IMG/VR virus record: IMGVR_UViG_3300027728_000121
Coordinates: 1-20,336 of that record
Direction: 5' to 3' (one strand)
From: a virus
DNA: 20,336 nt
Positions 2,591-20,336 of this stretch are shown one piece after another; the first letter of the stretch is position 1, and each line of letters starts with the position of its first letter. The translations under genes and the position numbers were made by a program. The notes under the pieces were generated by a model. It did no database searches, was not told the DNA's origin, and saw nothing but the letters and a program-made list of their open reading frames with translations.

Positions 2591-3142
2591 ATGGCGTGTC
2601 AATCGGACTTACTAAACGGCGGGATTTCACTTGGATGTGAACCTAACGCTGGTGGTGTAAAAAAAATATATATTACTGACGCTGTAAGTGTAACGGGTAT
2701 TACTCAAAATGCGGGTGGTATATTAGTTGCTAGTGGTGAGGTTATTAATAATATCGCAATGGCTACTAGTACATTCTTCTATAACTTTGAATTTAATAGG
2801 AATACTTCAAGTTATGTGGAAAGTGCGACTGTAAATTTAGAAAATGGAACAACTTTTTACACTCAAACAATTACTTTGGTTATCCCACGCAGGGAACAAA
2901 CAAAAAGAAATAAAATATTATTACTTGCGGCAGGACAAAAGAAACTAAACATTATAGTTCAAGATAGTAATGATTTATATTGGTTCTTTGGTCAATCTGA
3001 GGGTTGTATATTAACTGGAAATGAAGGTGGGTCGGGAACGGCAAAAACCGATTTGAACGGATATACTCTTACATTCACCGCTGAGGAACCAACATTAGCA
3101 CCCGAAGTGGATGCTACTGTTATTCCATCAATTGTTCAATAA
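2591..3142 (+). CDS. Probable major tail (tail tube-like) protein
   Basis: A 183-residue, beta-rich protein. Features typical of the tail-tube-like proteins of Bacteroidota siphophages are visible: the start MACQSDLLNGGISLGC, a following GGVKKIYI strand, a central FYNFEFNRNTSSYVES segment, an ENGTTFYTQTITLVIPRR strand, KRNKILLLAAGQKKLNIIVQD, then YWFFGQSEGCILTG and the C-terminal GYTLTFTAEEP strand. Such proteins polymerise into hexameric rings around the tape measure, which is not in this window. It is its own transcription unit between two strong terminators, although no clear nATATTTA element precedes it; the leader is simply A/T-rich. The assignment is by motif recall and position; an alternative is a minor virion protein. 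Confidence 0.7.
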   Translation: MACQSDLLNGGISLGCEPNAGGVKKIYITDAVSVTGITQNAGGILVASGEVINNIAMATSTFFYNFEFNRNTSSYVESATVNLENGTTFYTQTITLVIPRREQTKRNKILLLAAGQKKLNIIVQDSNDLYWFFGQSEGCILTGNEGGSGTAKTDLNGYTLTFTAEEPTLAPEVDATVIPSIVQ

Positions 3143-3166
3143 TCAATTTTTTCATATTAGATTAAG

Positions 3167-3194
3167 CCCCCTTCAAAAAAAGGGGGTTTTTTTT
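3167..3194 (+). terminator. Rho-independent terminator after tail-tube-like gene
   Basis: CCCCC (3167-3171), a 10-base A-rich loop, GGGGG (3182-3186) and eight T. Confidence 0.85.
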
Positions 3195-3222
3195 GTTTAA
3201 TGATTAAATTAGTATATATTTA
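3192..3222 (+). promoter_or_regulatory. Promoter-like site for cargo island
   Basis: TTTG at 3192-3195 overlaps the T run of the preceding terminator. A 19-base spacer leads to TATATTTA at 3215-3222, the best match in the window to the Bacteroidota TTTG / TAnnTTTG pair. The box ends 17 bases before the ATG at 3240. Confidence 0.55.
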
Positions 3223-3239
3223 TTATTAAAATAACATAT

Positions 3240-3543
3240 ATGGAAAAAATTAATTTACTTAAAGGAAACAATATTGACTTATTAAAAACACTTGAAAATA
3301 ACTCAATAGACAGCATTATTACTGACCCCCCTTATGGTTTATCATTTATGAATAAAAAGTGGGACTACGATGTTCCTAGTGTTGAATTTTGGAAGGAAGT
3401 ATATAGGGTATTAAAACCCGGAGGACATATATTAAGTTTCGGTGGGTTTTAACTTTATCGGAATGGAGATGGATGAAGATTACTTTAAAATTGCCGAAGC
3501 GAGAATAAATAATTTTGAACAATATAGAAAATTATTAAAATGA
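3240..3543 (+). pseudogene. DNA methyltransferase remnant (internal deletion plus frameshift)
   Basis: The first frame encodes 70 residues with the DPPYGL catalytic motif IV at 29-34, then VLKPGGHILSFGGF and a TAA at about 3450. The +1 frame continues at once with NFIGMEMDEDYFKIAEARI and runs to a TGA at 3541-3543. This second piece is the usual C-terminal end of beta-class (motif IV before motif I) N6-adenine or N4-cytosine methyltransferases. Missing between the two halves are the target-recognition region and the DPFxGSG SAM-binding motif. The joined product would be about 100 residues, against 200 or more for the family. A deletion that fused GGF to GFN out of frame explains this. No methylation activity is expected. 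A promoter-like site still lies in front. Confidence 0.8.
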
Positions 3544-3774: not shown

Positions 3775-4128
3775 ATGGAAACACATAAAATAAGACCCGA
3801 TTATTTAGACGCCTACCATCAAGGTGGGGGATTTTATTATCCCGTGATAATTTATCAAATAATAAATGTAGAAAATGGAAAAAGATGGGTTGGTGAGACA
3901 TTCAATTTAGATGTTTCAAAATTCGGTCAATTGTTTTTATTAAAAAAACAACAACACCCTTCAAAAGAATTTATAGAGGATTATAATTTATATGGAGATA
4001 AAGTATTTCATTTTTCAATATTAGAAATTATTAAGGATATTGAAGAAGTCAGAGAAAAATTTAACTTCTATATTAATTTATTAAAACCCGAATATAATTT
4101 ACAAAATAAATTTAAGTTGATTGAATAA
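3775..4128 (+). CDS. Degenerate GIY-YIG domain protein
   Basis: A 117-residue protein with the outline of a GIY-YIG nuclease. IIYQIINVENGKRWVGE (residues 25-41) replaces the two signature tripeptides with IIY and WVG. NLYGDKVFHFSILE (71-84) matches the usual KYGxxxFxxxILE block, and FYINLLKPEYN (98-108) matches the YIxxxxPxYN block. The arginine and histidine expected after WVG are not visible, and the usual catalytic glutamate before the YI aligns with Phe96; Glu94 is nearby but two positions off. No NUMOD or other DNA-binding tail follows. Known family: phage homing endonucleases and related nucleases. Inferred: catalytically weak or inactive, possibly repurposed or decaying. It has its own promoter-like site and a downstream terminator. 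Confidence 0.6.
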   Translation: METHKIRPDYLDAYHQGGGFYYPVIIYQIINVENGKRWVGETFNLDVSKFGQLFLLKKQQHPSKEFIEDYNLYGDKVFHFSILEIIKDIEEVREKFNFYINLLKPEYNLQNKFKLIE

Positions 4129-4596: not shown

Positions 4597-5763
4597 ATGG
4601 CACTATTAGATTTTTTATTCACAAAACAAAAAACTGAAACACCGCAACCAAAAGAAACACAACCAACTTATGTGGTGTCAGTAAATTTACAAAATTCAGA
4701 TTTCCCTAAAATCAAGGAAATAAAGAATAAGGATTGGGTTAATTTCGGAGATGATAATTTATATCCCGATACACTTATTGACTTATATAATTCATCTTCA
4801 ATTCATCAATCAATATTAACTCAAAAATCTAAAATGATTGCGGGAAATGGATATACATATGATGATACAACATTAACTGATATTGAAAAAGTTGAACTTC
4901 AAAAACTTCTAAAATATTTTGATAACGACAAATCAATTGATACATTTTTGGATTTAGTTAGTGGAGATTGGGAACTATTTGGTTCTATGTGTGTAGAAAT
5001 AATTTGGTCAAGGGATTTTAGTAAGGTTGTTCAATTCAAAAGAGTAAAACCTTCTTATATTCGTAGTGGAAAAATGAAGGATGGTAAAGTTGAAGAATAT
5101 TATTATTCAAATGATTGGTCAAACATAAGAGGTGTTCCCCCCGTTAGAATTGCGGCTTTTAATATTAATGATAAAGAAAATTATACTCAATTATTATATA
5201 TTAAAAAATATAATCCTAACACGGAATATTATGGTGTTCCAACATATACATCTGCCTTAAATTGGATTAAAGCAGATGCGGCAATAGCGGTATTTCACAA
5301 TATGAATATTACAAACGGATTTAACCCCGGTCTCGCTATACACTTTACTAAAAAACCCAACTCAATTGAAGAGCGTGAAACTATTGTTAATGAATTAAAG
5401 AGACAATATAGTGGAGCAAGAGCGGCTGGCAAACCATTAGTATTTTTTAGTGATGGGGTTGAAAATAAAACTACTATTGATACTATTTCACCATCTGACC
5501 TTGATAAACAATTTACAGTAATTGGGGAACAAATAGTAGTTCAGATATGTTCTGCTCACCGTATTGTTTCAACAGAATTAATGGCTATCGCAATTCCCGG
5601 TAAATTAGGTTCTGCTGATATATCAACCGCTTATAATATATTTGAATCAACTGTTATAGCACCCGAGCGTAGGGTTATTGAAACTTTAATGAATGATTTA
5701 TTTTTCTTAAATGGATTATCAGTTAATTTCAAATTAACACCCCTAAATATTTTGGAGGCTTAA
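4597..5763 (+). CDS. Portal protein
   Basis: A 388-residue portal, the dodecameric ring through which DNA enters and leaves the head. The ATG at 4597 (MALLDFLF) directly follows the upstream stop and is preferred over an in-frame start at 4519 inside the previous gene. Portal-like features: a DWVNFGDDNLYPDTLIDLYNSS block near residue 50, a repeated-helix clip/wing region, the long-range HNMNITNGFNPGLAIHF segment around residue 240, KRQYSGARAAGKPLVF, and a C-terminal helical region with the VVQICSAHRIVSTELMAI segment. The length is typical of HK97-type phage portals. The stop overlaps by one base the start of a homing endonuclease gene, an arrangement that keeps the portal intact. The terminase genes lie 3 kb downstream rather than next to it. 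Confidence 0.88.
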   Translation: MALLDFLFTKQKTETPQPKETQPTYVVSVNLQNSDFPKIKEIKNKDWVNFGDDNLYPDTLIDLYNSSSIHQSILTQKSKMIAGNGYTYDDTTLTDIEKVELQKLLKYFDNDKSIDTFLDLVSGDWELFGSMCVEIIWSRDFSKVVQFKRVKPSYIRSGKMKDGKVEEYYYSNDWSNIRGVPPVRIAAFNINDKENYTQLLYIKKYNPNTEYYGVPTYTSALNWIKADAAIAVFHNMNITNGFNPGLAIHFTKKPNSIEERETIVNELKRQYSGARAAGKPLVFFSDGVENKTTIDTISPSDLDKQFTVIGEQIVVQICSAHRIVSTELMAIAIPGKLGSADISTAYNIFESTVIAPERRVIETLMNDLFFLNGLSVNFKLTPLNILEA

Positions 5764-6188
5764 TGAACGAATATTATATCTATTTTCATATAAATAAGAC
5801 CACTGGTAAGGTTTTTTATGTTGGGAAGGGTAAAGATAGACGAGCGTGGAGAAAAGAGGGTAGAAGTTATTATTGGAACAATATTGTGAATAAATATGAA
5901 TATGAAATATATATTATCCACGAAAATTTATCTGAAAAAAGAGCGTTAGATTGGGAAAAATTATATATATCTATGTTTGGTAGAGAAAATCTTTGTAATT
6001 TGACTAATGGAGGTGAGGGAACAAGTGGAACAATTAGTTGGAATAAAGGAAAAAAACATACTAAGGAACATATTGAAAAAATGAAGGAAAAATTAAAGGG
6101 TAGGATTTTTTCCGATGAATGGAGAAAAAAATTATCAGAAGCCGCAAAAAAAAGGCATCAAAATATTTTACAAAACATAAATTTATAA
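5763..6188 (+). CDS. GIY-YIG homing endonuclease with NUMOD-type DNA-binding repeats
   Basis: A 141-residue protein that looks complete. The GIY-YIG nuclease domain (about 1-85) has YYIYF at residues 4-8, FYVGKG at 18-23, arginines 26/27 in the catalytic position, and WEKLYI at 64-69 with Glu65 as the metal ligand. CNLTNGGEGTSG is followed by SWNKGKKHTKEH and then FSDEWRKKLSEAAKKRH, two NUMOD3-like helical repeats that bind DNA in phage homing enzymes. Its ATG overlaps the portal stop (TAATG). Such free-standing enzymes cut related phage genomes lacking the gene and spread by repair. Target inferred: the corresponding portal/connector junction in relatives. Two terminators follow. Confidence 0.85.
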   Translation: MNEYYIYFHINKTTGKVFYVGKGKDRRAWRKEGRSYYWNNIVNKYEYEIYIIHENLSEKRALDWEKLYISMFGRENLCNLTNGGEGTSGTISWNKGKKHTKEHIEKMKEKLKGRIFSDEWRKKLSEAAKKRHQNILQNINL

Positions 6189-7421: not shown

Positions 7422-7985
7422 GTGAAGGAAATTTTAGACGATTATTTCAAAAATAATTATAAATTTTTATTGGAGGTTGTGGGCAACATCAATAACAACG
7501 GAGTAATACCCTATGAACTATATAGGGATTTAGTCGTTGAATTATATTTACACTGTATAAAAAAAATTGATGTTCTTGAAAAAGCCTATAATGATAAAGG
7601 GGAAAATGGCATTAAAGGTTATTGTATTAGATGGATAAAAAATCAATCTTACTGGTGGTCAGATTTCAAAAAATTGAATAATTTACATATTGACCGTCAG
7701 ATAGAATATAACCCCGAAAAAGACAACCGCATAGATGTTATTAGTGAAGAAGTTGAAGGATATTATAAGGATTTGGAAAATATCCATACCCCCGAACAAA
7801 TAGACAAAATCAAAAAAACAAAAGCGATTTATGAAACACTTGAACTATATGAAAAAAACTTATATGATATGTTGGTAACTCAAAAAATGACTATGGAACA
7901 AATATCAATTAAAGTGGGGATTTCAAAGGGTTCAGTTCATAATTTGGTAAAAAACCTAAAAGATAAAATAAAACGAAAAATGTAA
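7422..7985 (+). CDS. RNA polymerase sigma factor-like protein
   Basis: A 187-residue protein starting at a GTG after an A-rich leader; no better ATG lies nearby. The C-terminus (about 140-185) is a sigma region 4-like helix-turn-helix: LYEKNLYDMLVTQKMTMEQISIKVG, then ISKGSVHNLVKNLKDKIKRK. The N-terminus (about 1-85) has the helical outline of region 2: a DYFKNNYKFLLEVVG start, ELYRDLVVELYLHCIKKID, and GYCIRWIKNQSYWWSDFKK, comparable to the aromatic promoter-melting segment. Size fits the ECF-like sigma proteins of phages. If functional, it would direct host RNA polymerase to phage promoters; the nATATTTA elements in this window are obvious candidates (inference). It begins a run of closely packed genes leading to terminase. 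Confidence 0.65.
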   Translation: MKEILDDYFKNNYKFLLEVVGNINNNGVIPYELYRDLVVELYLHCIKKIDVLEKAYNDKGENGIKGYCIRWIKNQSYWWSDFKKLNNLHIDRQIEYNPEKDNRIDVISEEVEGYYKDLENIHTPEQIDKIKKTKAIYETLELYEKNLYDMLVTQKMTMEQISIKVGISKGSVHNLVKNLKDKIKRKM

Positions 7986-18884: not shown

Positions 18885-19310
18885 TTAAATCAAAGTTTTT
18901 GAAATTGTGATTGGGGTTGTTTGTATATTATGATATAAAGTGTCGTTATCAATAATAATCAATATTTCGTAATTTGAACTATCTTGAAGAACCCAACCAG
19001 AAGGTTGAGGTAATGAAATGTCAATATTATTATAAGTTTCTTGAAGTGTTTTTTGTTTTAAGAAAATATTATCACCAATTTTACCATTAAGTGTTATAGT
19101 TTCCCAATAAGGAACTTCCGGACTATTAGAAAATGATTGGTCTTGAATTGTAGGATAATTTATATTTTTATAATTCAAGTATATTTCAGTATGTGTGGTA
19201 GAATAAATATATATTTTTCTTGGTGATTTAATAATATCATCATCTTTTTCACAAGATGTCAAAAAAAATATTGAAGATAGTATAATAAGAATGTAGATTA
19301 GTTTTTTCAT
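18885..19310 (-). CDS. Phage-encoded lipoprotein with surface-export signal
   Basis: A 141-residue secreted lipoprotein. The N-terminus has MKK, a hydrophobic stretch (LIYILIILSSIFF) and the lipobox LTSC, with Cys20 as the lipidated residue after signal peptidase II cleavage. Residues +2 to +6 are EKDDD, close to the QKDDE / K-(D/E)2 lipoprotein export signal that sends Flavobacteriia lipoproteins to the outer face of the outer membrane. The mature part is beta-rich (IYIYSTTHTEIYLNYKNI, YWETITLNGKIGDN, YEILIIIDNDTLYHNI). It is the last gene of a minus-strand operon. Known phage lipoproteins often block receptors against superinfection; that role is inferred here. No homologue is named. Confidence 0.75.
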   Translation of the reverse strand: MKKLIYILIILSSIFFLTSCEKDDDIIKSPRKIYIYSTTHTEIYLNYKNINYPTIQDQSFSNSPEVPYWETITLNGKIGDNIFLKQKTLQETYNNIDISLPQPSGWVLQDSSNYEILIIIDNDTLYHNIQTTPITISKTLI

Positions 19311-19364
19311 AGGATAAAGTTAGTCAAAATATTTGATACCATCAACAATATCATTTTTTGGTTT

Positions 19365-19595
19365 TCAATTTTCATCATCGGGTTTACAATTAACCCCATA
19401 CATTTTTTGATTATATTGTTTTGTATATTCATCATATGGTATAAATGATTTTGTGAATATATCATAAACAAGTCGTTTGTTATTAACATCAGTTGAACTA
19501 ATATCTTCAATATTATCAAAATCCTTGATTATAAGGGGTTTTTCTTTATCATCTATAATATCCCCTACCCATTTGTTTTTTAGTTCGTTATCCAT
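19365..19595 (-). CDS. Small unknown protein, reading frame continues past an in-frame TGA
   Basis: A 76-residue acidic protein, middle gene of the minus-strand operon. Its ATG overlaps the stop of the winged-helix gene (ATGGATAA, eight bases). I do not recognise it; visible are WVGDIIDDKEKPLIIKDFD, RLVYDIFTKSFIPYDEYTK and the end CKPDDEN. The frame resumes after TGA with KPKNDIVDGIKYFD and a TAA at 19322-19320, nine bases before the lipoprotein ATG. Stopping at the TGA leaves a 54-base gap. The 90-residue version fits the compact operon better, so the TGA may be a recent nonsense change, a sequencing error, or a readthrough site. Function unknown. Confidence 0.55.
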   Translation of the reverse strand: MDNELKNKWVGDIIDDKEKPLIIKDFDNIEDISSTDVNNKRLVYDIFTKSFIPYDEYTKQYNQKMYGVNCKPDDEN

Positions 19596-19914
19596 TGTTT
19601 AAATAGTTTTCTAATACATCATAATTTATTGTTATATTTCTACGCTTCACGAAGCCAGATTTTGTTTCTCTTGAATGGTCGTAAAAACCATATTGACATC
19701 TTGATATAATACCTTTATCACACAAATCCTTTATATAGTATTGTGGTTGTCTTTTGGTTTTATATCCAAATATTTGGGATATTTCTTTATCAGTTAGGGT
19801 AAAGTTTCCCCTATGTTTAGTATATTCTTCAATTAAAGCAAGTAATCTTATTTGAGTTGTTGATAACTTTTTAATTTGGAAATAAATAACTGGGGTTTTA
19901 AAAGTAGTTTCCAT
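19588..19914 (-). CDS. Winged-helix DNA-binding protein
   Basis: A 108-residue protein and first gene of the minus-strand operon. LSTTQIRLLALIEEYTKHRGNF is helix 1, LTDKEISQIFG helix 2, TKRQPQYYIKDLCDKGII the recognition helix, and ISRCQYGFY plus RRNITINYDVLENYL the wing and following helix. This is the layout of winged-helix domains in phage and plasmid regulators and Rep-like proteins ('...T.EIA..L....K.V...I..L...GII'). It may autoregulate its operon; a direct repeat of ACTTAGT lies in the promoter region upstream. An alternative is a replication or partition accessory. The basic KSGFVKRR stretch suits DNA binding. Confidence 0.65.
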   Translation of the reverse strand: METTFKTPVIYFQIKKLSTTQIRLLALIEEYTKHRGNFTLTDKEISQIFGYKTKRQPQYYIKDLCDKGIISRCQYGFYDHSRETKSGFVKRRNITINYDVLENYLNNG

Positions 19915-20026: not shown

Positions 20027-20049
20027 TTTGTCAAACAACGATATATTTA
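20027..20049 (+). promoter_or_regulatory. Promoter-like site for the structured RNA
   Basis: TTTG at 20027-20030, an 11-base spacer and TATATTTA at 20042-20049. A second AATATTTA lies at 20016-20023. The next plus-strand element is not a gene but the RNA and its terminator. Confidence 0.45.
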
Positions 20050-20054
20050 TTAGT

Positions 20055-20165
20055 ATAACAATAATAATTCCGAGTTATTAAAGTTAAAAAGTATTTATTG
20101 GAAAGATATATTCATACATATTTCCCCTAACTTTTTACTCGGAATATTAAGTTAGGGGTTTTTTT
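20055..20165 (+). ncRNA. Putative structured small RNA with pseudoknot or terminator/antiterminator switch
   Basis: Between a promoter-like site and a strong terminator lies about 110 bases without a convincing reading frame. ATTCCGAGT (20067-20075) is a perfect 9-base complement of ACTCGGAAT (20137-20145), which lies inside the 15-base loop of the terminator hairpin. The order A-B-A'-B' is that of a pseudoknot. Between them GGAA/TTCC with ATAT/ATAT (about 20100-20124) can form a local bulged hairpin, and AAAAAGT (20086-20092) can pair with ACTTTTT (20130-20136) as an alternative. The 5' end is estimated from the box position. I do not recognise it as any known RNA family. Transcription has not been shown. 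Confidence 0.5.
20124..20165 (+). terminator. Terminator whose loop pairs with upstream RNA
   Basis: CCCCTAACTT (20124-20133) pairs perfectly with AAGTTAGGGG (20149-20158), followed by seven T. The loop (20134-20148) holds the 9-base complement of 20067-20075. Confidence 0.8.
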
Positions 20166-20240
20166 ATACCCCAATTTCAAAGTGGGTAAAGATACAAGAA
20201 CCATAAGTATAGGAGGGAGTTTAACCTTTTGGATGATAAC

Positions 20241-20336
20241 CTAATAATCAAAAACAATATTACAATCTTTAATTGTGTAAATGGGTATTCCAAACTTATT
20301 TCCCGACACAGCCTCATCATAATAGTGGTAGTTGAA
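20241..20336 (-). CDS. C-terminus of an unknown minus-strand gene (start outside window)
   Basis: On the minus strand the frame is open from the right edge to a TAG at 20243-20241, giving 31 residues that end with a KFGIPIYTIKDCNIVFDY sequence. The alternation of hydrophobic and charged residues, and a stop after typical C-terminal residues, look like real coding sequence. The opposite strand is also open here but has no start codon and a run of I/V residues. The gene would be convergent with the structured RNA. Too little is visible to name a family. Confidence 0.55.
   Translation of the reverse strand, partial: FNYHYYDEAVSGNKFGIPIYTIKDCNIVFDY

Follow-up and report, generated by a model that had tools for sequence, protein, structure and literature searches.

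A predicted small RNA of a tailed phage with a 5' arm complementary to its terminator loop

The locus and the phage genome

The window analysed here, 20,336 bases long, is a virus record from IMG/VR, and positions are numbered on that whole stretch unless another record is named. Near its right end, a promoter box on the plus strand is followed by a predicted small RNA, which is also found in a second lineage made up of L110 plus L112/L115 (also L023/L025). The parts of the element are as follows.

20042-20059, plus strand: promoter box TATATTTATTAGTATAAC, with an identical box in L110 and L112
20055-20165, plus strand: predicted non-coding small RNA of about 110 nt, a conserved unit in L110 and L112/L115
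20067-20075, plus strand: 5' arm ATTCCGAGT, exact complement of the terminator-loop arm
20076-20123, plus strand: AU-rich linker between the 5' arm and the terminator stem
20124-20133, plus strand: 5' strand CCCCTAACTT of the 10-bp terminator stem
20134-20148, plus strand: 15-nt terminator loop TTT-ACTCGGAAT-ATT, with the second arm ACTCGGAAT at 20137-20145
20149-20165, plus strand: 3' strand AAGTTAGGGG of the terminator stem (20149-20158) and T7 tract (20159-20165)
20166-20336: non-coding stretch, conserved in part, that continues past the window to an inverted repeat

The first-pass annotation had described a 9-base perfect complement between 20067-20075 and 20137-20145, with the second copy inside the loop of a 10-bp terminator stem and a 3-base linker on each side of it, and a direct read of the sequence bears this out to the base. 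The whole terminator hairpin spans 20124-20158, with the T7 tract coming next, and folds by itself to −14.0 kcal/mol; because the opposite strand has no T run, the terminator serves the plus strand. It had also been stated that a promoter-like box is followed by no gene, and the view of a promoter-driven non-coding unit gains support both from the relatives, where the box is identical, and from the direct read of the window, where the predicted RNA contains no ATG. Besides the 5' arm, only a single 9-nt stretch of the phage genome, on the minus strand near 5230, is complementary to the loop, and no convincing trans target of the arm or the loop was found inside the phage genomes.

The TATATTTA in the box fits the flavobacterial TAnnTTTG element, which is located at −12 to −5 (position from PMC9723704), with its final base being A, not G. 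Based on the spacing of this element, transcription is predicted to start near 20054/20055. The TATATTTATTAGTAT core occurs in 26 distinct contexts across the compared loci, mostly just 5' of open reading frames, and in 5 of the 26 copies an ATG follows directly, at the base predicted from the TAnnTTTG spacing to be the transcript start. This suggests leaderless mRNAs, and it supports the promoter function of the box and a 5' end of the RNA near 20055. It is also seen that the box TATATTTATTAGTAT(R) is common to many phage genes, and a sigma-factor-like protein (7422-7985, phrog_1190) might serve this shared box.

A nearly identical contig (3300028571_000215, denoted L015) bridges the end of the window (20336) to its start (1) by 4,418 bases (L015 2977-7396), which contain a tape-measure-like gene and neighbouring genes, and thus the map is circular with 24,754 bases. 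The gene set is that of a small tailed phage, comprising a large terminase, a portal, a capsid-region protein, long tail-type proteins and the sigma-factor-like protein; the capsid-region protein has distant relatives in the Nonlabens phages P12024L/S, and the host of the phage is probably a member of Bacteroidota. Three further loci (3240-3452, 3775-4128 and 5763-6188) hold an N-terminal DNA methylase fragment and a pair of GIY-YIG-type endonuclease genes; these are possibly homing elements, and the second endonuclease gene carries a NUMOD3 motif. In the Pfam and PHROGs scans no replication enzyme was recognised in the phage.

To the right of the RNA, the following features are arranged.

L015 2976-3052, L110 9118-9165, L023 around 2600-2670: G-rich inverted repeat, between the RNA and the AT-rich tract
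L015 about 3090-3400, L110 9151-9376, L112 4126-4350: stretch poorest in GC in each record, 3' of the RNA
L015 3418-3999, plus strand: next plus-strand gene, beyond the AT-rich tract

The earlier placing of the RNA between two minus-strand genes is not supported on the right-hand side, where the minus-strand open reading frame at 20177-20335 is without a counterpart in the relatives and the actual neighbourhood is the G-rich inverted repeat and then the very AT-rich tract. In the window lineage the arms of the inverted repeat are AAAATAAGTTAT/ATAACTTATTTT, around GGGGGGTAAGGGGGG or GGGGGCCTGGGGG, and the AT-rich tract carries the repeats TTCTAATAGAA and GTTATAACAA. The GC content of the tract is 14% over 250 bases in the window lineage and 9-10% over 150 bases in the others, and such a very low-GC tract lies ahead of the RNA in each of the three genomes. 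It is possible, as a speculation, that this tract is a replication origin, and it is likewise speculative that the RNA would gate transcription into it. To the left of the RNA, the window has divergent minus-strand genes (18885-19914), in the place of which L110 (8549-8797) and L112 have an unrelated protein of 82-83 aa; judged on the sequences, this site is a swapped cargo site.

Compensatory changes between the two lineages

In L110 and L112/L115 the element sits between homologues of the same two flanking genes, with the box, the arm, the linker and the terminator in the same order and place. The flanking proteins are 41-72% identical to those of the relatives, with the left one at 41-43% and the right one at 46% over its length (L112) or 72% over its first 65 residues (L110). 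The 5' arm of the second lineage is ACATCCAAGTTA and its loop complement is TAACTTGGATGT, giving a helix of 12 bp.

Compensatory changes in both arms had been named in the first-pass annotation as a check on the pairing, and this check, now run, gives a positive outcome: the arms diverge and the pairs are restored. In the common register (core TCCRAGT/ACTYGGA), all 9 of the window pairs are kept in the second lineage and none is broken, with 3 of the 9 differing between the lineages by two-sided changes (A-U/C-G, U-A/A-U and G-C/A-U). Here the 5' arms were aligned by MAFFT and the register of the 3' arm was set by eye, MAFFT being off by a base. Before being put in this register the arms had seemed wholly different between the lineages, a view that was then dropped. 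For three random changes of the 3' arm, the probability that all 9 pairs are restored is about 7e-4; if 35% random divergence is assumed instead, it is about 3e-4. The arm of one lineage pairs with the arm of the other over no more than 5-6 nt. Moreover, the inner pairs of the terminator stem are changed on both sides in L110 and L112 relative to the window. Between L110 and L112 themselves, the arms and the terminator are identical, with the surroundings being about 89-90% identical.

When the 5' region of the window is shuffled with its dinucleotides preserved, a complement of at least 9 to the fixed loop arises in 0.4% of the shuffles. This rate is suggestive, yet the complement was noticed after the fact; by itself the window complement would be worth little. 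The 12-nt complement of the relatives, which is independent of the window, was reached in 0 of 20,000 shuffles, and among 100 distinct terminator hairpins of the compared loci a loop/upstream complement of at least 9 is present in these two lineages only. Since the arms are compensated in the relatives and no further case of at least 9 appears among about 100 terminators, the pairing of the 5' arm with the terminator loop is very probably under selection, as read from sequence comparison two lineages deep; three covarying pairs are few, and the independent lineages number only two.

Folding of the RNA and the competing readings

The folding program works without pseudoknots and hence compares nested folds, which cannot judge the coexistence of the arm/loop helix and the terminator. 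For the window, the energies of the two nested folds almost coincide, being −21.3 kcal/mol for the arm/loop fold and −20.9 kcal/mol for the terminator fold. In L112 the values are −21.3 and −27.0 kcal/mol, respectively, and in L110/L112 the terminator fold is favoured over the arm/loop fold by about 6 kcal/mol. The pairing of an upstream strand with a terminator strand, by which an antiterminator is recognised, is present in the minimum-free-energy fold of the window, where the 5' strand of the terminator is paired too (AAAGTTA/TAACTTT), and is absent in L110/L112, where the arm pairs with loop bases only. In the prefix folding of all three sequences, the arm/loop helix is the best one in the examined prefixes before the 3' strand of the stem is complete. 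A hairpin in the linker forms in the relatives, being significant in L112 only and none being significant in the window, in a test from which the last two folded stretches, 3 nt out of register, were excluded.

The first-pass annotation had doubted that a 9-bp helix fits between 3-base linkers, which is not decisive. The end-to-end distance of an A-form strand is about 26 Å for 9 bp and about 31 Å for 12 bp, and on such simple strand-end distances the arm is not too long; short linkers could span these distances, though strained, if the helices are unstacked. The pairing of the 5' arm with the terminator loop most likely results either in a pseudoknot of the H type or in a structure by which termination is delayed.

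The layout of the element, its same place in the second lineage and the compensatory changes in its arms are direct observations, and with them we propose that the element is a stand-alone phage non-coding RNA gene of about 110 nt, forming by this pairing an H-type pseudoknot like that of the small RNA RydC, an explanation to which we give an even chance. In the model, we infer that the RNA is made, with the transcript beginning near 20055 and stopping within the T tract, at 20165. In the course of transcription, as the prefix folding suggests, the 5' arm would grab the loop complement once it is made. The terminator stem would close afterwards, with both helices then coexisting in an H-type, RydC-like pseudoknot that anchors the 5' end on the 3' hairpin, and this fold may stabilise and present the RNA. 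As two minus-strand open reading frames lie between the RNA and the next plus-strand gene in L112, the RNA is not simply the leader of that gene. With no inner ATG, a distant plus-strand gene and a right-hand open reading frame that is not conserved, the stand-alone RNA is the simplest reading, and since the RydC topology exists in a working terminator-ended small RNA, the RydC-like pseudoknot is favoured, with a switch being the main rival. Counting against the pseudoknot, the loop L3 has 3 nt in both lineages, so that the full arm of 9-12 bp in a closed terminator would be strained. Moreover, arms of 9-12 bp exceed what a pseudoknot needs (7 in RydC), which would suggest that an exclusive switch suits them better, and the weakness of the linker hairpin in the window counts against the pseudoknot too.

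The switch would be a conditional terminator (attenuator), in which the arm/loop helix forms first and blocks the closure of the terminator, with a factor or the polymerase speed choosing between the stop at 20165 and read-through to the conserved AT-rich tract and on toward the structural genes. This reading is possible but doubtful. It is consistent with the arm/loop helix being best before stem completion in all three sequences, with the nearly equal energies in the window and the engagement of the terminator 5' strand in its best fold, and with the long arms. It is also consistent with the lowest-GC stretch of 150-250 bases lying a few hundred bases downstream in all three genomes, with the repeats in that tract in the window lineage, and with the replication enzyme missing from the family scans, which is a weak point because most of the small phage proteins have no match at all. 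By contrast, in L110/L112 the arm pairs with the loop only and the terminator fold is better by about 6 kcal/mol, so that the fold there is not that of a classical antiterminator, and in L112 two minus-strand open reading frames come after the RNA. No regulated gene is present directly downstream on the same strand, the next plus-strand gene being about 390-880 bases away. If the AT-rich tract is a replication origin, the read-through could open or prime it; that the switch between the terminator loop and the 5' arm gates transcription into an AT-rich origin, with the RNA fold timing the start of replication, is unlikely, though still a rival to be weighed. The origin is guessed from composition, and AT-rich intergenic tracts are common.

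The perfect complementarity of arm and loop would also allow two or more RNA copies to bind each other arm-to-loop, or arm and loop to bind a host RNA; since the phage genomes offer no convincing second target, the RNA would have to find its partner in another copy of itself or in the host. The cis partner is, however, always nearer than a trans partner, and we regard such intermolecular pairing as quite unlikely. Finally, the complement could have arisen by coincidence, with the promoter and terminator being ordinary ones of an AT-rich phage, in line with the 0.4% shuffle rate for the window alone and with the complement having been spotted after a scan of the whole window by eye. This is very unlikely, because the second lineage keeps 9 of 9 pairs with three two-sided changes and has the helix grown to 12 bp, and no other of the about 100 terminators is alike.

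Comparison with known systems

The RydC-like pseudoknot also bears on the earlier statement that no described RNA family with such a layout was known, which is incorrect, as E. coli RydC, checked on its sequence, has the same topology. RydC is an Hfq-bound small RNA of Escherichia and Salmonella, the pseudoknot of which is seen in the crystal structure and is needed for stability, with the half-life falling from over 32 min to about 2 min when the pseudoknot is broken (PMC4337610). The helix in RydC of E. coli K-12 joins GACCCGT (12-18) to ACGGGTC (35-41), the latter in the loop closed by CGCCTGTAC/GTACAGGCG. Like the phage RNA, RydC thus has a 5' arm, a linker, a terminator stem, a 15-nt loop with the arm complement and a U-rich tail, and the phage RNA would share, judged on complementarity, its topology of a 5' arm against a 3' terminator loop. 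They differ in arm length (9-12 bp in the phage RNA versus 7 in RydC), in L1 (about 48 nt versus about 6) and in L3 (3 nt versus 7), with no sequence relation, and the one is phage-borne whereas the other is enterobacterial. In L112, moreover, about 4 nt separate the predicted 5' end from the arm, so that a seed of the RydC type would have little space. The window scores below the gathering threshold of every Rfam family, and at a permissive threshold only chance-level matches appear near the element, none of them RydC; the phage RNA is thus unrelated in sequence and of a known kind of fold.

The full element was found in two lineages only, both in exact-pattern scans of IMG/VR and among relatives of the terminase, the capsid protein, the left-hand HTH-like protein and both flanking genes. 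Nucleotide searches of isolate phages with the window region and the L110 region gave no match, and neither did protein searches with both flanking genes. A scan of 395 genomes from the phylum to which the L199 genome (a MAG labelled Crocinitomicaceae) belongs gave no case of the box-plus-terminator pattern, and in the literature on phage small RNAs in Flavobacterium nothing relevant was found. To our knowledge, few non-coding RNAs have been described from phages of Bacteroidota.

Attenuators of the pT181/pIP501 type are switched by an antisense RNA, and their 5' sequence ties up one strand of the terminator. The phage RNA is similar in that pairing of its 5' sequence with a portion of the terminator hairpin further downstream could delay termination, and differs in that L110/L112 pair loop bases only and no antisense RNA was identified. 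At the primary origin of phage T7, a promoter points at a short AT-rich tract, where no terminator or pairing RNA is known; the phage box also points at an AT-rich tract, here a candidate origin only. A small covariation-supported RNA gene near a possible origin would be an easily mutated test case for a terminator that carries a second pairing, as well as for the independent rise of RydC-like folds in phages. Taken with RydC, the topology is already known, while the sequence, the host group, the arm length and the setting are new, which places the phage RNA outside the RydC family.
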